Assembly: GCF_028368935.1 (NCBI RefSeq)
Contig: NZ_JAQNDK010000003.1
Span: forward strand, 1,054,001 to 1,118,000
DNA from: Sorangium aterium
GTDB lineage: Bacteria; Myxococcota_A; Polyangia; Polyangiales; Polyangiaceae
Length of the DNA stretch: 64,000 bases
Direction: 5' to 3'
Shown here: piece after piece, positions 6,513 to 16,682 of the stretch
Layout of the letters: every line of letters begins with the position of its first letter
Position numbering within the stretch: position 1 is the stretch's first letter
Notes under the pieces: generated by a model
What the model was told of the DNA's origin: nothing
The model's input: only the letters and a program-made list of their open reading frames with translations
Databases searched by the model: none
Made by a program: the position numbers and the translations under genes

Positions 6513-6620
6513 CCTCCGGGCGGCCGAGCAGGGCAGGTCCTACGTGCTCATGGGCGCACCCCTCGGGGATGCTCCCATAGGCGTTCACCAAGCTTCGCGC
6601 CGCGCTCTCCTACATCCGAA

Positions 6621-6780
<160 letters not shown>

Positions 6781-8256: not shown

Positions 8257-8865
8257 TCAGTCGGTGATCACGATCTTGGCGCCGTCCGGCGTTCGTCGCG
8301 CGATCTCGTCAATCTCGTCGTCGTCGAGGGCGATGCAGCCGAGCGTCCAGTCGCTCTCCTTGTGCACGCCCGCGAGCTGCGCGCTGCCGACGCCGTGGAT
8401 GCCGATGCTGTGCCCGACGCCGCGGCCCGGCGGGACCTCGCCGCGCCGCTTGAGCTCGGTGAAGCGCGCGCGGTCTTCGTCGTTCGGGTAGCTGACGATC
8501 AGGAACCGATGGAACAGGCCGTCGATGCGGCCCGCGACGCGGTACGTGCCGACGGGGGTGCGCTTGTCGCCCTCGTAGCGCTTCGGCCCCGGCCCGCCAG
8601 GCCCGAGGGCGACCCGGTAGGACCGGACGATCTTGCCGCCCGCGACGAGATCGAGCGTGTGTTCGCTCTTGTCGATCCGGATCTCGGTGACCGGCGGCGA
8701 GGCAGCGGCCCTCGGAGCGCGCCGCGCGGCCGTGGCGGGCGGCGTTCGCTGGGACGGCGCCGCACGAGGGGCACCGCCTGAGCCGGCCGTCAGGGAGGGG
8801 GCCGTGTGGGTGAGGGAAGCGGCGAGCAACGCCGCGGCAAGGACGAGAGGGGGCCTGAGGAGCAT
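8257..8865 (-). CDS. L,D-transpeptidase (YkuD domain), exported
   Basis: 202-residue exported enzyme. An N-terminal hydrophobic segment (1-25), probably a cleaved signal peptide, is followed by an Ala/Pro/Arg-rich linker to about residue 58. The YkuD domain follows: 'EIRIDKSEHTLDL', 'GDKRTPVGTYRV', the 'GIHGVG' strand with His157, and 'SDWTLGCIAL' with the catalytic Cys177 (usually S-x-GC). Such enzymes make or remodel 3-3 crosslinks in peptidoglycan or attach lipoproteins to it. A neighbouring OmpA-like lipoprotein and the membrane-anchored sigma-like gene fit an envelope theme. Start at ATG 8865; the next gene is divergent and shares a symmetric promoter region. Confidence 0.88.
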   Translation of the reverse strand: MLLRPPLVLAAALLAASLTHTAPSLTAGSGGAPRAAPSQRTPPATAARRAPRAAASPPVTEIRIDKSEHTLDLVAGGKIVRSYRVALGPGGPGPKRYEGDKRTPVGTYRVAGRIDGLFHRFLIVSYPNDEDRARFTELKRRGEVPPGRGVGHSIGIHGVGSAQLAGVHKESDWTLGCIALDDDEIDEIARRTPDGAKIVITD

Positions 8866-8890
8866 GCCCGACCGTCGGCGCCGCGCCGGA

Positions 8891-8944
8891 GAGTGTGACG
8901 CCCGGCCGGGGCCTGCAGTATTCTCGATCGGGCGCGTCACACTC
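8891..8944. promoter_or_regulatory. Symmetric divergent promoter/operator region
   Basis: In the 105-base gap between the divergent transpeptidase and sigma-like genes, GAGTGTGACG (8891-8900) and its exact complement CGTCACACTC (8935-8944) are placed 34 bases apart, around AGTATTCTCG. Each half could be a -35 element for one direction, sharing the AT-richer centre as -10. A regulator dyad is the other reading. Confidence 0.5.
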
Positions 8945-8970
8945 CGCGGCCGCGGCGCGATGCAGGGTCG

Positions 8971-10047
8971 ATGAGCACGCCGATGACCACCGAGGACCGC
9001 ACCCCCGCGACGAACCCCCTGGCAGAGCCGGGGCTCCGCCGAGCCCTCGAGGATTTCGTGCGGCGGCGGGTCCCGAGCGGCGAGGTCGACGACGTGGTGC
9101 AAACCGTCCTCTGCGACGCGCTCGCTTCGCCGGGGCGCCCGGTCGACCCGACGGAGCTCCGGCGCTGGCTCCTCGGGATCGCGCGCCACAAGGTGGCCGA
9201 CCATCACCGGCGCTCGGCGCGGGAGGCCGCGACGGAGCTGCCCGATCTGCCGGTCAGCCCGCCGCCCATCGAGGCGCGGGAGCTGGCGCGCTGGGCGGAA
9301 GAGCAGGCCTCCGCGAGCCGCGACGCCCGGCAGACGCTGTCGTGGATGGCCCGCGAAGGCGAAGGCGAGAAGCTCGAGAGCATCGCCGCCGAGGAGCAGG
9401 TGCCCGCCGCCCGGGTGCGGCAGCGCGTGTCGCGGATGCGGCGATGGATGCGGGAGCGCTGGATGGCCGAGCTCGCCGCGGTCGCGGCGCTGGCCATCCT
9501 CGCGATCCTCATCGCCCGGCTCCTCCGGTCGACGAGCGAAGCGCCGATGATCGCGCCGCTGCCCGAGCCGCAGCCGAGCGCGCCGCCCGACGGGCCTCCG
9601 CCGCCGGTCGCACCGCCTTCGCCGCTCGACGCGCTGGAGCGCGCGAGGTCGCTCCGGGCCGAGGCGCTGCGCGCGTGCGACGAGGCGGCCTTCCGCCGGT
9701 GCCTGGACCAGCTCGACGAGGCGGATCGGCTCGACCCGGCGGGCCGCGACGCGCCGGAGATCGCCGCGGCGCGCGAGCGCGCGCTCGAGGCGCTCCGCGC
9801 GCCGACGGAGAAGGCCCCGGCGCCGGGGCCCGTCCACGAGAAGCTCGACAAGAAGGACGAGAGCAACTCGCGCCCCGCGCCGAAGCCGCGCCCGAAGGTG
9901 GCGCCGCCGCCCGCACAGAAGCCCACCTCGTCGGTGCCCGCGGAGCAGATGCTCAAGGAACAGATGCTCAAGTCGAGGAAAGCAGCGCCGAAATCGAAGG
10001 CGGGCGGCGGGCTCGACGAGATGGATTTGCCGTCGGGGAAGCTCTAG
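8971..10047 (+). CDS. Membrane-anchored ECF sigma factor-like protein
   Basis: 358 residues. The N-terminal part resembles an ECF sigma factor. Region 2 lies at about 20-80 ('DDVVQTVLCDAL', 'RRWLLGIARHKVADHHRR'). A region 4-like helix-turn-helix lies at about 118-165 ('EKLESIAAEEQVPAARVRQRVSRMRRWM'). A clear transmembrane helix (about 167-185, AAVAALAILAIL) follows at once, then a Pro-rich stretch (190-215), a TPR-like helical hairpin ('ALRACDEAAFRRCLDQLDEADRL', 230-275) and a Lys/Pro-rich tail. Sigma factors are normally soluble, so this would tether the DNA-binding part to the inner membrane, with the tail outside. No separate anti-sigma gene is adjacent; the C-terminal half may do that job. 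Confidence 0.72.
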   Translation: MSTPMTTEDRTPATNPLAEPGLRRALEDFVRRRVPSGEVDDVVQTVLCDALASPGRPVDPTELRRWLLGIARHKVADHHRRSAREAATELPDLPVSPPPIEARELARWAEEQASASRDARQTLSWMAREGEGEKLESIAAEEQVPAARVRQRVSRMRRWMRERWMAELAAVAALAILAILIARLLRSTSEAPMIAPLPEPQPSAPPDGPPPPVAPPSPLDALERARSLRAEALRACDEAAFRRCLDQLDEADRLDPAGRDAPEIAAARERALEALRAPTEKAPAPGPVHEKLDKKDESNSRPAPKPRPKVAPPPAQKPTSSVPAEQMLKEQMLKSRKAAPKSKAGGGLDEMDLPSGKL

Positions 10048-10251: not shown

Positions 10252-11304
10252 ATGCGAACGACGAGATGGCTTGGAATGGCATTCGCAGTGTCGCTGCTCG
10301 CGGCGAACGCCGGCTGCGCGGTCGAGCCCCAGCAGCAGACCGCGAAGGCGCCGGCACCGCCGCCCGCGCCGCCGCCGCCTGCGCCGCCTGCGCCGCCCCC
10401 TGACGCGGACGCGGATGGGGTGCTCGACGATGGCACCGACAAGTGCGTCGCCGAGAAGGAAGACGGCCTGCCGCCCGACGCCAAGGACGGCTGCAAGTCG
10501 ACCGACCCGGACGGAGACGGCTTCGTTGCCGACGCCGACAAGTGCCCGACCGAGGCCGAGGTCAAGAACGGCTACAAGGACGACGACGGTTGTCCTGACG
10601 TCCCGCCGGTCGCCGTGCTCGGCAACGAGGTGAAGCTCAACGAGAAGATCGCCTTTGTCGCCGGCAAGCCCGATATCGAGCCCGCCTCGCAGGGACTCCT
10701 CGCGAACATCGCGCAGGTCCTCAAGGACCATCCGCAGATCCAGTTCGTCGAGGTCGCGGCCTACTCCGAGAAGCTCGCCAACGACGCCGCCGCCGTGACG
10801 CTCACGAAGAAGCGCGCCGAGGCGGTGGTGAAGGCGCTCACCGCGCTCGGGGTCGAGAAGAACCGCGTGCGGGCCGCCGGCTACGGGGCGCACTGCGCGA
10901 CCGATCCGGGCGAGACCGAGGAGGCGAAGGAGAAGAATCGCCGCGTCGAGATCAAGATCATGCGGCTCGACGGCAAGGACACCGGCGTCGAGCTCGCCTG
11001 CGCCGCGGCCGCCACCAAGGGCCTCAAGCCGGCCGGCGTGCCCGCGACCGCGCCGAAGGGCGCCGCGAAGGCCTCCGACGCGAAGCCGGTGGACCCGAAG
11101 GCCGCCGCCAAGCCCGCGGAGGCGAAGCCCGCCGCTGCGCCTGCCGCACCGGCGCCCGCCGCTGCGCCGCCGGCCGCTGCGCAGCCCGCCGCCGCGCCTG
11201 CCGCCGCCGCGCCCGCCGCTGCGAAGCCCGGGGACACGAAGCCGGCCGCTGCGAAGCCTGCGGACACGAAGCCGGCCGAGACGAAGCCTGCCAGCGTGAA
11301 GTAG
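10252..11304 (+). CDS. OmpA-family lipoprotein with thrombospondin type 3 repeats
   Basis: 350-residue outer-membrane lipoprotein. The signal ends in LLAANAGC (Cys22). After a Pro/Ala linker come calcium-binding TSP3-type repeats (DADADGVLDDGTDKC, DPDGDGFVADADKC, about 45-110). An OmpA-like peptidoglycan-binding domain follows (about 122-245: 'FVAGKPDIEPASQGLL', 'RVRAAGYGAHC', 'NRRVEIKIM'). The tail (246-350) is an Ala/Lys/Pro-rich repeat and probably disordered. OmpA domains bind diaminopimelate in the cell wall, so it likely links outer membrane and peptidoglycan. AGGAGAGGAG just upstream of ATG 10252 is a strong ribosome site. It follows the sigma-like gene by 204 bases. Confidence 0.9.
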   Translation: MRTTRWLGMAFAVSLLAANAGCAVEPQQQTAKAPAPPPAPPPPAPPAPPPDADADGVLDDGTDKCVAEKEDGLPPDAKDGCKSTDPDGDGFVADADKCPTEAEVKNGYKDDDGCPDVPPVAVLGNEVKLNEKIAFVAGKPDIEPASQGLLANIAQVLKDHPQIQFVEVAAYSEKLANDAAAVTLTKKRAEAVVKALTALGVEKNRVRAAGYGAHCATDPGETEEAKEKNRRVEIKIMRLDGKDTGVELACAAAATKGLKPAGVPATAPKGAAKASDAKPVDPKAAAKPAEAKPAAAPAAPAPAAAPPAAAQPAAAPAAAAPAAAKPGDTKPAAAKPADTKPAETKPASVK

Positions 11305-11482: not shown

Positions 11483-14400
11483 CTAGCGAGCCTGTCCGCG
11501 CGCGGCGGCGAGCAGGTTGGTGAGCGCCTCCAGCGCGGCCTGCCGGCGCTGCGGCTCGGGCAGCGCGCCCGGGCGCAGGCGCTGGATCTCGGCGCACAGC
11601 GCGGCGCGATCGCCGGCGAGAGCCTCGCCGCACGGCGCGGCGCGCGCGCCGTCTCCGGGGGCGTCGCGCGGCGCAGGCTCGCCGGAGAGCACGGCCGCGG
11701 CGGCCTCGATGAGGCGCGCCGTCGTCGCGGCGCTCTCGCTCTCACCCCGGAAGCGGCCGACGAAGTCGGGCTGCTTCGAGAGCCGCGAGAGGACGTCCCA
11801 GCGCTGCTCGCGCACGGCGAGCTCCGTCGCGAAGAGCACGACCTTCAGGTTGCGGCCGAGGTCGGGGAGGGCGCGCGTCTCGGCGTCGAGCGCCATGAGA
11901 TCGTCGACGACGCTCGCGTCGAGCGCCGCGGCCGCGCAGCGCACCGCGACGCTGAGCAGATCCGCGCGCAGCGCGGGGCCGAGCGAGGGAGCGCGGCCGA
12001 GCGCGCGCGCTGCGGCGAGCACGACGGGGCCGCAGTGCCCCTCGCGGCGCTGCCGCGCCAGCATGACGCCGGCGTCGTAGAGCCGGCCGCTCTGCCGCAG
12101 CGCCTCCACGGCCGCCGAGAACGCGTCGGGGTCGTACGTCCCCCGCTCCGCCGCCGTGAGGAAGCCGTCGAGGCTGCGCAGGGCAGGGCACGCGGCCGCG
12201 CTGCCCGCGCGCCGGAGGTGCGGCAGCTTGCCGAGGACGTCGGCGATGCGCAGCGAGAGCGCGAGGGGGTAGGCGTCGCAGGCGGGCTCCTCGTAGCCGC
12301 CGAGCTCGACCCTGGCCTCGGTGCACGCGAGCGGTCTGGCGACCGCGGCGAGCGAGCGCGCGGTCCTCGCGACGAGCGGGTCGAGCCCAGGGACCGCGGC
12401 GAGGCCGGTCGGGAGCGGAGCGAGGAGCGCCGCGACCGCGGCGTCGTCCGCGTCCGGCGGCAGGAGGCCGCGGACGAGCGTCCAGAGGTCGCCCGCGAGG
12501 AAGGGGTGACCGGCCTCGGCCGCGAGCTGGGCGTCGATCGCGAGCAGCGCGCGGGCGTCCCGGCCCCAGGCGAGCGGCTGATCCGGGCGCAGCCCCCGCC
12601 GCCCGAACCGGAGGCCGAACGAGAGCGCGGCGATCGCCCGGCGCGCCGCGGCGGTGCCGCGCTCGGCGTCGCCCTCGAGGAAGTGGTAGGCGGCCGCGAG
12701 CGCGGCGGCGCTGACGTAGGCGCGCGCCGCGTCCTCGTCGCTCCGGGGCGAGCCCTCGGGCGCGAGCGCCGCGGTGAGGGAGCCCTCGGGCTCGCCGCGG
12801 GTGCGGAGGCCGAGGCCGAGCTGGAAGCTGTTCGCCCCTTCGAGGAGCCCGGCGCCGTACGAGACGTCGAAGCTGAGCGAGAAGACGCGGGTCGCGGTCT
12901 TCTCCTCGTAGCGGTAGGTCATGCGCGGCACGCGCAGGCCGCGGGCGTCGGCGGCGGCGAGGACGCTGTCGAGGGCGTCGCGCGCCTCGGCGCGCCGGCC
13001 GCCGGCGAAGTCGCGCACGGCGCCGACGAGGGCGAGCACGTCGCCCGTGTCGGCCGCCTGGCAGGCGTCGTCCGACGCCTTGCTCATGGCGCTTGCATAG
13101 GTCGACGGATCCGGGGCAATGCCGGCGCGGGCCTTCGCGATCTCGCCGAGGTACGAGAGCGCCCAGGCGACCCGGCTGCCGCTGTCGTTCGCGAGCGCGA
13201 TGGCGTCCGGCGACGGCGGCCCACCCAGCACGGCGGCGCCGAGGAGCGAGGCGAGCAGCGCGAGGTCGGCCTGGTCGCGCAGCCCGAGGGCCGAGAACGC
13301 GCGGGCGTAGCCGACGAACAGGCCCCTGAGGTCGCCGCCGTCCCGCGCGGCGGGGAGCGACGCGAGCGCGTCGAGCAGCGCGCCGTCGGCGGGGCCTCGT
13401 CCGGCGCCGCCGCGCCGCGCCGGATCGTCGCGGAACGCCGCGGAGAGCCCGCGGAGCACCCGGCCGAGCGGGGCGCCGCTCCGCTCGGCGAAGCGCTCCG
13501 CGGTGGACGACTCGAGGAGCGCGCGGGCGAGCGCGTAGCCGCCGGTGAGCGCGTCGGCGAGGTCGCGGTCGACCCAGCCGGAGAGGCCTGCGGCGACGGT
13601 GGCCTCGGCGTCCGCGGTCGGGAGGGTGAAGCGCGGCGGAGCGACGCGCTCCGCCGCGCCGGCGGCGCGCGGCGCGCGTGCGGGCGCCGAGAGGAGATCG
13701 ATCGCGTCGGAGAGGAGCGTCACGAGGAGCCGCGCCCGGCGCGCCCACGGGCCGTCGCCCTGCCTGTACCGAGGCGCGAGCAGGATCCGCCGGCGGACGT
13801 CGCCGAGCCGCGCGAGGGCGCGGCGGGCCTCGGGGCTCGGCCCGCGCCCGGCGGCGCAGGCGGCCCCGGCCGGCGGCGGCTTGCGCGAGCGCTCGGTGAG
13901 GAGCACGGCGAGGACGCCGTCGGCCAGCGCGGTGACGTCCTCGACGAGCTGGGGCGGCGGCGCCTCCGCGGCGTCGGCCGCGCCGGCGTCGGCATCGCGC
14001 GCCGCGAGCCCAGCGACGGCGCGCCGGAGCGCGTCGCGCGCCTGCCGGCGCTCCGGGGGGAACCTGGCTGCGTCGGTCGCCTGCGGATCCAGCCCGCCGG
14101 CGGCGCCGAGCGCGGCGTAGCGGGAGAGGCTCGCGGCGAGCGCCGCGAGGCCGGGGTAGGGCAGCGCCGGGGCGGACGCGAGCGCGCGCTCGATCTGCGC
14201 GGACGAGAACGCGAGATCCGGCGCCTGACCCGAGGCGAGCCGGTACAGCGCGTCGGCGGCATAGAGGCCGGCGACGCCCCAGCCGGCCTGCTCGGTGAGC
14301 TCGCCGCGGAGCTTGGCGGTGAGCGCGCCCTGCAGGGCGAGGAAGTGCGGGGGCTGCACCTCGGGCGGGTACGCCATGCCCGCGAAGACGCCGGCGAGCG

Positions 14401-15880
14401 CCGCGCCGAGGACGGCCTCCGGGTCGTGCGCCTCGGCCATGCGGCGCTGCACGGTGACCTGCGTGAGATCGACGATGGCGTCGCGGAGGGGCTCGTCGGC
14501 GAGCACCCCGGGGCTGTAGGCGAGGGGGATCAGCGCGAGCGCGCGGTAGCGGCGCGGCGCGGCCTCCGCGAGGGCGCGCAGCGCCGCGAGGTGCGCGAGC
14601 CCCAGCTCGGTGGCGCGCCGGTGGACGGCGCTGCCCGCCTGGCCTGCGGCGGGCGCGGGGCCGCGCTCGTGGAGCAGGCTGGGCGCGAGGGCCCACGTGG
14701 TGCTCGTCTGGTCGACGGCGCGGACGAGCGCCTCGTAGCGCGGCAGCCACGCGTCGAGCGGGAGCCGTCGTCCCGGCGCCGCCGCGGTGCTCGCGGGCGC
14801 AGCGCCAGGGTCGCCCGGGGCGAGGGCGCCGGCGAGCGCCGCGGCGAACACGAGGTCGCGCGGGCCTTCCATGGGGGGCGCGAGGTCCCGGCCGCAGCCG
14901 GGCGCCTTGCCGAGCAGGTCGTCGAGCGCGTCGCGCCGGTCCGCGGGGACGGCCCGCAGCACGGCCGCGCCGCGGGCGCGCCACGCCGCGCGGCCGTCGC
15001 GGGCCGTGCGCACGCGGAGGAGGTCGCCGTAAGGCATGTCGCCCGGCGCGGGCGGGGGGTCGAGCCGGGGGGCCGAGGACGCGAAGGGAGCGTCGTCCTC
15101 GGGCTCCTCGAGCGCGACGCCGGCGGTCGCGAGCAGCTGCAGCGCGTAGCGGCCGCGCAGGACCGGCTCGTCGTTCGGGTCGCGCCCCTTCACCGCGGCC
15201 GCGAGGGCGTCGGCCGCGGCCGCGGCCTCGACGTAGCGGAAGCGGCCGGCGGCGCCGAAGGCGCGGCGGACGAGCGTGGCGAGCGCGATGTCGTCCGCGA
15301 CCCGCGAGAGCGACGCGTCGCCGCGCGCGATCGGCGCGAGGCCGGCCATGAACGGCGCGAGCGGATCGGCCGGAAAGAGCTGGACCGCGCCGTGGCGGGC
15401 GTGCGCGTGGACGAGGTGCTCGTACCCGAGGGCCTCACCGAGCGCGAGGAGCAGCGCGTCGGCGCCGAGGGCTCCGGGGGGCGGCAGCGGCGCGGAACGG
15501 AGCCATTTCGCCGCGTCCGCACGCGCTCGCGCCGTGGCGGAGGGCTCCGCGCCCGCCTCGACGATGACCGCGGCGCGGGGGCCGGTCCCGCCGCGCCGGT
15601 CGAGGTCGCGGAGCAAGAGCGCCCACGGGTCGTCGGCGTCGCGGAAGGCGCGGGCCGCGACATAGCCGAGGGCAAGCTCGCGCGGGGGCCGGCCCTCCGC
15701 GAGGGCCGAGGCGAGGGCGCGCTCGCACGCGTCGAGGTGCGCAGGATCGCACTGAGCGGCCTGCGGCGGCGTGGCGGCCGGGGAGGCCGCGCCCCCGCAG
15801 CCGGCGGCGAGCAGCGCGAGGAGCACCGCGGAGCAGAGCGGGAGAGCGCGCGGCGAGGAGGACACGCGATCGTGCAGCAT
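11483..15880 (-). CDS. Giant lipoprotein of unknown function (1465 residues)
   Basis: Very long predicted lipoprotein: basic start, hydrophobic core and lipobox LLAAGC (Cys28). The rest is an Ala/Leu/Arg/Asp-rich, almost entirely helical sequence with no recognised domain. Irregular helix pairs (for example 'HLDACERALASALAEGRP' early on and 'ALRQSGRLYDAGVMLARQRREG' late) resemble degenerate TPR or solenoid repeats. Scattered Cys residues occur. Base composition and codon use match neighbouring real genes, and the signal sequence is convincing, although the opposite strand also contains a long open frame. It is monocistronic, divergent from the toxin-antitoxin operon. A surface scaffold or a myxobacterial lineage-specific protein is my guess only. 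Confidence 0.75.
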   Translation of the reverse strand: MLHDRVSSSPRALPLCSAVLLALLAAGCGGAASPAATPPQAAQCDPAHLDACERALASALAEGRPPRELALGYVAARAFRDADDPWALLLRDLDRRGGTGPRAAVIVEAGAEPSATARARADAAKWLRSAPLPPPGALGADALLLALGEALGYEHLVHAHARHGAVQLFPADPLAPFMAGLAPIARGDASLSRVADDIALATLVRRAFGAAGRFRYVEAAAAADALAAAVKGRDPNDEPVLRGRYALQLLATAGVALEEPEDDAPFASSAPRLDPPPAPGDMPYGDLLRVRTARDGRAAWRARGAAVLRAVPADRRDALDDLLGKAPGCGRDLAPPMEGPRDLVFAAALAGALAPGDPGAAPASTAAAPGRRLPLDAWLPRYEALVRAVDQTSTTWALAPSLLHERGPAPAAGQAGSAVHRRATELGLAHLAALRALAEAAPRRYRALALIPLAYSPGVLADEPLRDAIVDLTQVTVQRRMAEAHDPEAVLGAALAGVFAGMAYPPEVQPPHFLALQGALTAKLRGELTEQAGWGVAGLYAADALYRLASGQAPDLAFSSAQIERALASAPALPYPGLAALAASLSRYAALGAAGGLDPQATDAARFPPERRQARDALRRAVAGLAARDADAGAADAAEAPPPQLVEDVTALADGVLAVLLTERSRKPPPAGAACAAGRGPSPEARRALARLGDVRRRILLAPRYRQGDGPWARRARLLVTLLSDAIDLLSAPARAPRAAGAAERVAPPRFTLPTADAEATVAAGLSGWVDRDLADALTGGYALARALLESSTAERFAERSGAPLGRVLRGLSAAFRDDPARRGGAGRGPADGALLDALASLPAARDGGDLRGLFVGYARAFSALGLRDQADLALLASLLGAAVLGGPPSPDAIALANDSGSRVAWALSYLGEIAKARAGIAPDPSTYASAMSKASDDACQAADTGDVLALVGAVRDFAGGRRAEARDALDSVLAAADARGLRVPRMTYRYEEKTATRVFSLSFDVSYGAGLLEGANSFQLGLGLRTRGEPEGSLTAALAPEGSPRSDEDAARAYVSAAALAAAYHFLEGDAERGTAAARRAIAALSFGLRFGRRGLRPDQPLAWGRDARALLAIDAQLAAEAGHPFLAGDLWTLVRGLLPPDADDAAVAALLAPLPTGLAAVPGLDPLVARTARSLAAVARPLACTEARVELGGYEEPACDAYPLALSLRIADVLGKLPHLRRAGSAAACPALRSLDGFLTAAERGTYDPDAFSAAVEALRQSGRLYDAGVMLARQRREGHCGPVVLAAARALGRAPSLGPALRADLLSVAVRCAAAALDASVVDDLMALDAETRALPDLGRNLKVVLFATELAVREQRWDVLSRLSKQPDFVGRFRGESESAATTARLIEAAAAVLSGEPAPRDAPGDGARAAPCGEALAGDRAALCAEIQRLRPGALPEPQRRQAALEALTNLLAAARGQAR

Positions 15881-15969: not shown

Positions 15970-16030
15970 TGCGGTGTCCCCGAGGATCCGTTACCAGATC
16001 ATTGTACCTCGACGCGACAGGGGCACCGCA
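15970..16030. promoter_or_regulatory. Inverted repeat at the toxin-antitoxin promoter/start
   Basis: TGCGGTG-T-CCCC (15970-15981) and GGGGCACCGCA (16020-16030) are complementary apart from one bulged T. The right arm covers the ribosome site and the A of the antitoxin ATG. A smaller CGAGG/CCTCG pair is nested inside. The layout fits a Phd-type autoregulatory operator or an RNA fold hiding the start. Confidence 0.5.
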
Positions 16031-16308
16031 TGGCGATTTCTCCCGAGGACATCGTTCCGCTGAGCCAGGCGGAGGCCCGGCTCACGGAGCTCGCAGACGA
16101 GGTTCGCGCGGGTCACGAGAAGATCCTCACGCGGAACGGGGAGGGGTACATCGCCCTCGTCGACGCACGCAGGCTGGACCACTATCACCGCCTCGAACGC
16201 GAGCACATTCACCTCACGCTCCTGGAGGAGGTGGATCGGGGCCTCGACGATATCGAGGCCGGGCGCACGATGAGTGTGGAGGAGCTCCGCGCCAAGTACC
16301 GCCGATGA
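16030..16308 (+). CDS. Type II antitoxin, Phd/YefM family
   Basis: 92-residue protein. The N-terminal half carries the Phd/YefM fold: 'IVPLSQAEARLTELADEVRAG' followed by 'KILTRNGEGYIALVD', the hairpin that dimerises and binds operator DNA. The C-terminal half (about 55-92, acidic/helical, 'EELRAKYRR') is the flexible arm that wraps around and blocks the toxin. Antitoxins of this family repress their own promoter as toxin complexes, and an inverted repeat overlaps the start. The stop codon overlaps the toxin ATG (ATGA), indicating translational coupling. Confidence 0.9.
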   Translation: MAISPEDIVPLSQAEARLTELADEVRAGHEKILTRNGEGYIALVDARRLDHYHRLEREHIHLTLLEEVDRGLDDIEAGRTMSVEELRAKYRR

Positions 16309-16682
16309 GCCGCCGCGCCACTGTTCGGGTCACCGAGAACTTCGAGCGGAACCTGGACGAGATCCGGCGGTTTCTGGAGGAGGCGGGGCTCTCTTCCGCT
16401 TTCGGCGATCTTCTGGATCTCGTCTTCGAGGACGTGATCCCGAGCCTGGAAGTCTCGCCCCTGCTCGGATTCGACTTCCTTGCGCGTGCGCCACAGTCCG
16501 CGGAGGTCGAGGCGCGGATCCTGGCGCTGAAGCGCCGCCTCGGCTCCGACTCGTCGCTGCGGGAGTACATCGCTGGTGAGTACCTGTTGCTCTACGCGCT
16601 CAGCGGTGAGCGGATCCATCTGCTGGCCATCAAGCACCATCGCCAGCTCTCGTTCGATTTGCAGGCGCTCTGGCGCCGGTGA
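16305..16682 (+). CDS. Type II toxin, RelE/ParE superfamily
   Basis: 125-residue basic protein translated from the ATG overlapping the antitoxin stop. The pattern is RelE/ParE-like: N-terminal 'VRVTENFERNLDEIRRFLEE' helix pair, a central basic helix ('EARILALKRRLG'), then strands 'EYIAGEYLLLYALSGERIHLLAIKHHRQLSFDL' ending in the conserved hydrophobic-basic-His pattern. RelE members cut mRNA at the ribosome and ParE members poison gyrase; which applies here is not decidable from sequence. It is somewhat longer than typical RelE proteins (about 85-100 residues). Confidence 0.85.
   Translation: MSRRATVRVTENFERNLDEIRRFLEEAGLSSAFGDLLDLVFEDVIPSLEVSPLLGFDFLARAPQSAEVEARILALKRRLGSDSSLREYIAGEYLLLYALSGERIHLLAIKHHRQLSFDLQALWRR

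Follow-up and report, generated by a model that had tools for sequence, protein, structure and literature searches.

The window analysed here, a 64,000-nucleotide stretch of the Sorangium aterium genome, holds a gene whose 358-aa product combines sigma factor domains with a transmembrane (TM) helix and which is referred to below as the sigma-TM gene. It is divergent from a gene for an exported YkuD-fold protein, and the genes surrounding it encode, by Pfam, EVE, YkuD and OmpA proteins and a 1465-aa protein that matches no family. The features of the locus, with the evidence for each in brackets, are as follows:

8257..8865, minus strand: exported YkuD-fold protein, DpaA/Csd6-like, with a GCIA catalytic loop; predicted target (Pfam YkuD, NCBIfam, PDB matches)
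8873..8899, minus strand: predicted promoter of the YkuD gene, GTCACACT-N14-CGACG, 7 nt before the ATG (motif comparison)
8936..8962, plus strand: predicted promoter of the sigma gene, GTCACACT-N14-CGATG, 8 nt before the ATG (motif comparison)
8971..10047, plus strand: gene for a predicted membrane-anchored ECF sigma factor, 358 aa (ATG start, uninterrupted ORF, Pfam, AlphaFold2 model)
9037..9222, plus strand: sigma region 2, residues 23-84 (Pfam Sigma70_r2)
9319..9465, plus strand: sigma region 4 with helix-turn-helix, about residues 117-165 (model helices, profile alignment to 161-163, Foldseek)
9469..9525, plus strand: transmembrane helix, residues 167-185, continuous with the region 4 recognition helix (hydropathy, model, charge balance in the family)
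9526..9621, plus strand: Pro-rich linker, residues 186-217 (sequence, low pLDDT)
9622..9798, plus strand: periplasmic helical hairpin, residues 218-276, with conserved Cys236 and Cys244 (model, family alignment)
9799..10044, plus strand: disordered Pro/Lys-rich tail ending in GKL (model, sequence)

Pfam places Sigma70_r2 on residues 23-84 of the 358-aa ORF with a score of 27.6 bits, against a cut-off of 24, and the sigma-70 profiles of NCBIfam cover both regions 2 and 4 (residues 24-163); among the latter, TIGR02989 aligns to residues 24-161 with 41 bits, which is below its own cut-off of 124.55. In an AlphaFold2 model built from 37 homologues, pLDDT exceeds 90 across most of both sigma domains, and region 4 consists of helices 117-130, 135-142 and 146-187, the last of which is unbroken, the recognition helix running on into the TM helix. 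Profiles, model and Foldseek all leave regions 1.1 and 3 missing and place the region 4 helix-turn-helix soon after region 2. The region 2-like and region 4-like helices of the original prediction are borne out by the Pfam region 2 match above cut-off and by the confident two-domain model, and a comparison of the sigma part with the ECF fold agrees with it as well, the best PDB matches found by Foldseek being the ECF sigma factors sigmaE, SigL and SigH (probability 0.97-1.00, E 0.003-0.07).

The TM helix, which had been placed at residues 167-185, holds up equally well: the mean Kyte-Doolittle hydropathy is 2.37 over the 19 residues starting at 167, and the value of this segment exceeds 1.4 in 95 of 96 relatives. 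Lys and Arg number on average 6.1 in the 15 residues preceding the TM helix of these 96 relatives versus 2.4 following it, and this excess predicts an N-in, C-out topology. Past the linker, the model shows a hairpin of two helices (218-237 and 241-254) and a disordered tail. Together, profiles and model identify the 358-aa ORF as an ECF sigma factor predicted to be anchored in the inner membrane by its own TM helix.

Pfam searches revealed no anti-sigma domain between region 4 and the TM helix or elsewhere in the protein, and no match to a FecR-type anti-sigma domain up to E = 1. The same searches returned no zinc-finger, SnoaL or TPR match, and the TM helix follows directly after region 4 in the model. 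A strict sigma-anti-sigma fusion, one of the two forms in which the protein had initially been conceived, is not supported, as Pfam detects no such domain. The statement that no anti-sigma factor is encoded nearby was confirmed, as none of the neighbour genes tested gave an anti-sigma match in Pfam. A protein search of the same genome found no other copy of the sigma-TM architecture, the remaining matches being short sigma matches.

A conserved core with different periplasmic parts

Of the taxonomic family's 108 genomes, 75 gave a match to the sigma-TM family, although a few of these, among the lowest-scoring, are plain sigma domains. Two other families of the order also contain members; in the rest of the class, the protein gave only short sigma matches. 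The recurrence of the architecture across the family argues against a chance arrangement. No relatives of the gene were found on plasmid records. In regions 2 and 4, the core residues do not vary within the sigma-TM family. In three genomes of one genus of the same taxonomic family (G079, G080, G081), several sigma-TM homologues carry in-frame TAG or TGA codons and may be pseudogenes, assembly errors or cases of recoding.

In a tree of 96 members, built on residues 1-185, clade A (77 rows), to which the window protein belongs, separates from clade B (19 rows) with 100% SH-aLRT support. The periplasmic part of clade A is mostly a hairpin that contains a pair of Cys residues (39 of the first 41 members) followed by a Pro/Lys-rich tail, Cys236 and Cys244 of the hairpin being nearly invariant in the family. 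That of clade B is a lipocalin-like beta-barrel which aligns to FABP-like and lipocalin-like structures with Z of about 10-11 over 94-114 residues (rmsd 2.4-4.6); for this predicted barrel the likeness is one of fold only and does not imply a ligand. Since the two clades differ in their periplasmic part, the sigma-TM core is a module that carries different periplasmic parts.

The genes around the core vary more widely: across 41 sigma-TM loci, a divergent YkuD gene was found 11 times, an EVE gene 15 times and an OmpA gene three times, all OmpA cases lying within the genus. The proposed pairing with envelope genes therefore stands in part. The promoter region shared with the divergent YkuD gene speaks for it, and this is the pairing that matters; conservation is only partial, however, and a functional pairing with OmpA was rejected, OmpA being a neighbour within the genus only. 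The unmatched 1465-aa protein (11483-15880, minus strand), which has no Pfam match above cut-off, is probably exported and is encoded near the sigma gene in several genera.

A bipartite promoter motif and its predicted targets

In most of some 30 genera, clade A genes are preceded by a bipartite motif, GTCACACT-N14-CGA[T/C]G, which is common to the upstream DNA of distant genera despite unrelated neighbours and is often found 7-8 nt ahead of the start codon, a position that predicts a leaderless mRNA. No housekeeping promoter of the sigma-70 type was found at the sigma-TM gene. The window's own genome has exactly four exact sites, which precede the sigma gene, the divergent YkuD gene and two genes for exported proteins, and zero matches to the reversed pattern. 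An ATG follows at 7-8 nt in four out of four exact sites versus none of 17 one-mismatch sites; the latter, none of which has a start codon at this distance, were taken as chance occurrences, and two of them, on contig C4, are matches without the T.

Three correlations connect the motif with the sigma factor. The motif is present in 59 of the 69 genomes that have the sigma gene versus 11 of the 37 that lack it (Fisher p = 1.4e-8, in a comparison that counts the sigma gene's own sites and ignores kinship among genomes). Exceptions thus run both ways, with the exact motif missing from 10 of the 69 and at least one copy present in 11 of the 37, and some of them are probably due to chance or assembly gaps. 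Outside the order but within the class, a hand count gave about 26 motif sites versus about 25 for the reversed-pattern control. Finally, the spacer tracks the clade: 67 clade A rows have GTCAC-N17-CGA, whereas 15 of the 17 readable clade B rows have N16, a spacer one base shorter. From the co-occurrence across genomes, the control-level counts elsewhere in the class and the clade-following spacer, we infer that GTCACACT-N14-CGAYG is the putative recognition sequence of the clade A sigma factor.

To these sites a set of candidate targets can be attached. The 60 regions read around sites not belonging to the sigma gene, plus the three targets of the window's own genome, provided 64 non-self sites, 41 of which are followed at 5-10 nt by the start of an ORF of at least 100 aa, compared with 7.8% of random positions. 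Simple rules, rather than a trained predictor, class 37 of these 41 ORFs as exported-looking versus 32% of the genes in the sigma loci (p = 2e-13) and detect a lipobox-like motif in 25 of them versus 11%. Recurrent families include DUF3160 (7), YkuD (3), C39-like peptidases (3), DUF1570 (3), and alpha/beta hydrolases and M23-like peptidases (2). In the window's own genome, the two exact sites outside the window's divergent pair lie before genes for an exported protein without Pfam match and for a lipoprotein-like protein that has a cytochrome c domain. Judged from the encoded proteins, the predicted target set is an envelope regulon, and the sigma factor most likely reads the promoters of its own gene, of the cell-wall enzyme gene next to it and of a few genes for exported envelope proteins.

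Two groups of exported proteins stand out behind the motif. The DUF3160 proteins are the commonest Pfam family there (loci L198, L200, L208, L213, L222, L229 and L247). A further exported family, recognizable by a motif around PLC...CGS...NLYWGA, occupies this position in six loci (L214, L221, L225, L231, L237 and L251), and the one member tested has no Pfam match.

Proposed anchoring and release of the sigma factor

The activity of most ECF sigma factors is governed by anti-sigma factors that are proteins of their own. Single-chain membrane sigma factors for which both the mode of inactivation and the sensed signal have been established are, to our knowledge, very few. As a kind, such proteins are nevertheless already known, from IutY as well as from groups ECF48, ECF52 and ECF53 (PMC8999054, PMC5826349). 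The exact order of domains, which the original prediction had put forward as the new point, accordingly has a precedent in IutY of P. putida, an ECF243 member of 374 aa involved in cell-surface signalling, in which one chain comprises a sigma domain up to around residue 168, a TM helix and a periplasmic part, and release is by Prc and then RseP (PMC5411451). The sigma-TM protein resembles IutY in length and in uniting sigma domain, single TM helix and periplasmic part within one polypeptide. It differs in its hairpin and tail, which give no anti-sigma match, in the absence (by Pfam) of a siderophore receptor gene among the adjacent genes in the window, and in belonging to a family that is spread across the myxobacterial order and whose predicted targets are exported envelope proteins.

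The actinobacterial groups ECF48, ECF52 and ECF53 (e.g. SCO4117) likewise consist of an ECF sigma factor fused to a TM segment, with a Pro-rich extracytoplasmic extension in ECF52, and autoregulation has been suggested for them (PMC5826349, PMC8999054). While the fusion and the Pro-rich extension recall the sigma-TM protein, the zinc-finger anti-sigma-like domain that these groups have between sigma domain and TM segment, and the carbohydrate-binding module of ECF52, were not found in it. Both IutY and ECF52 own recognizable extracytoplasmic sensor domains, whereas the window protein has only a small hairpin and a disordered tail. In ECF41 and ECF42, control rests with a C-terminal extension of the sigma factor, and no separate anti-sigma factor is involved (PMC8999054), as we propose for the sigma-TM protein; there, however, the extension is SnoaL-like (ECF41) or a TPR domain (ECF42) and not a TM helix with a periplasmic module. 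Our literature search found no description of the myxobacterial family, which the main ECF classification (2021), outside that search, may list as a group. New, as far as we have checked, are the lack of any recognizable anti-sigma domain, the two periplasmic modules that can replace each other, the promoter with a spacing that depends on the clade, and the exported regulon. One sigma-TM core with at least two periplasmic modules, a predicted promoter and a small target set per genome makes recognition, release and sensing amenable to testing.

We consider it likely that the protein is a membrane-held ECF sigma factor with a periplasmic sensing part, which is released by proteolysis and directs a GTCACACT-N14-CGAYG regulon. 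Computation provides the sigma domains, the TM helix, the conserved family, the promoter motif with its link to this family, and the exported targets; the reading of the motif by this sigma factor, the topology in vivo, the sensing and the proteolytic release are what we infer. The protein would sit N-in, C-out, and its periplasmic sensing part would stand in for a separate anti-sigma factor. In the resting state, the -35-binding helix would be continuous with the TM helix, and confinement to the membrane would restrain the sigma part. An envelope change felt at the hairpin or tail would open the protein to site-1 and then site-2 proteolysis, which would free the sigma part, as in IutY, to guide RNA polymerase to promoters of the above type. 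The output would be mostly leaderless transcripts, of the sigma gene itself, the divergent gene for the DpaA-like YkuD protein and a few exported proteins. By analogy with IutY, whose arrangement it matches, the sigma-TM protein would keep its sigma part at the membrane until proteolysis sets it free; site-2 protease homologues are present in the window's own genome, and no site-1 cleavage site was identified in the sigma-TM protein. Of the function first proposed, a one-protein, membrane-tethered ECF sigma factor that reads the state of the envelope is thus the part retained as the best explanation, the predicted targets being mostly exported.

The main rival to release by proteolysis is that the sigma factor acts while membrane-bound, a periplasmic change altering the sigma part or its clustering such that RNA polymerase and promoter DNA are recruited with no cleavage. 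CadC and ToxR are one-component regulators in which a single TM segment is joined directly to the DNA-binding domain, a plan that the sigma-TM protein shares, and Pfam detects no anti-sigma domain that would need to be removed. Against this mode, which we hold to be unlikely, the recognition helix passes without a break into the TM helix in the model, leaving little room for the -35 element, and IutY, the closest studied plan, needs RseP unless its TM segment is absent (PMC5411451).

It is also conceivable, though quite unlikely, that another regulator reads GTCACACT-N14-CGAYG, the sigma-TM gene being merely one of its targets and the protein reading some other promoter. What ties the motif to the sigma factor is correlation, and some genomes have the motif without the gene; yet the spacer shifts with the sigma clade, which another regulator reading both forms would not by itself explain, the motif falls to control level outside the order, and autoregulation is common in ECF systems (PMC5826349). 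Finally, the modest region 2 score (27.6 bits versus a cut-off of 24) would suit a sigma-like domain that is no longer a sigma factor, in a protein with a structural or scaffold role in the membrane. This we find barely credible given the invariant core residues of regions 2 and 4 in the family, the match of the model to ECF sigma factors and the family-specific promoter of the gene.

The YkuD neighbour and the C-terminal lysine

The divergent YkuD protein shares with DpaA (YafK) of E. coli the YkuD fold and an Ala after the catalytic Cys. Its best NCBIfam match is LdtF/DpaA/YafK, with 32.1 bits, far below the cut-off of 365, and in the PDB it matches a YkuD-domain protein and the carboxypeptidase Csd6, two respects in which the assignment to DpaA is qualified. 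The Ala in its GCIA loop lies two residues past the catalytic Cys, as it does in DpaA, where many LD-transpeptidases have Arg (PMC10653827); the five other YkuD proteins of the same genome in which the motif was found read SHGC[IV]N or SSGCVN, with Asn at this position. Since the Ala is shared with DpaA and the other YkuD proteins of the genome have Asn, the neighbour is more likely a hydrolase than a cross-linking enzyme.

Terminal Lys is found in 43 of 60 clade A members (genus average 65%), with 23% and 9% at the next two positions, in tails that are otherwise unalignable. The frequency is 32 of 463 (6.9%) among the other genes of the loci and 2 of 57 among predicted targets, and a general habit of these genomes was on these grounds rejected as the sole cause; in a small control, 5 of 19 other proteins with low-complexity tails end in Lys. 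The window protein itself, with its GKL terminus, ends in Lys-Leu and has no terminal Lys. The OmpA-family lipoprotein encoded next to it (10276-11304, plus strand) has a Lys/Ala/Pro-rich tail that does end in Lys, a feature shared by its relatives in the genus.

A C-terminal Lys joins Lpp, and likewise OutB, an inner membrane protein of Dickeya dadantii, to peptidoglycan (PMC12274547). Like Braun lipoprotein and OutB, most clade A members have a C-terminal Lys on an extended periplasmic tail, although the window protein ends in Lys-Leu and attachment in clade A is hypothetical. By this analogy one might imagine, as a possible but doubtful extension of the model, that in most of clade A the terminal Lys is tied to peptidoglycan by LD-transpeptidases, and that loss or hydrolysis of the tie would report the state of the wall and free the sigma factor. 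The latter would then induce itself and, in the window genome and nearby genera, the DpaA-like YkuD hydrolase, which might cut such ties. For the window member the idea is weak, since a protein ending in GKL would need trimming. If the tail were wall-bound, it would link peptidoglycan attachment directly to transcription.

Two further features of the window deserve mention. Overlapping genes at 16030-16308 and 16305-16682 (plus strand) encode a Phd/YefM antitoxin and a ParE-type toxin and form a type II toxin-antitoxin pair. At 6620-6768, tandem arrays of an 18-bp unit (3.6 copies, 100% match) and of the 6-bp unit ACGACC (8.5 copies) sit between a gene of the MMPL family and a gene for an unmatched exported protein.
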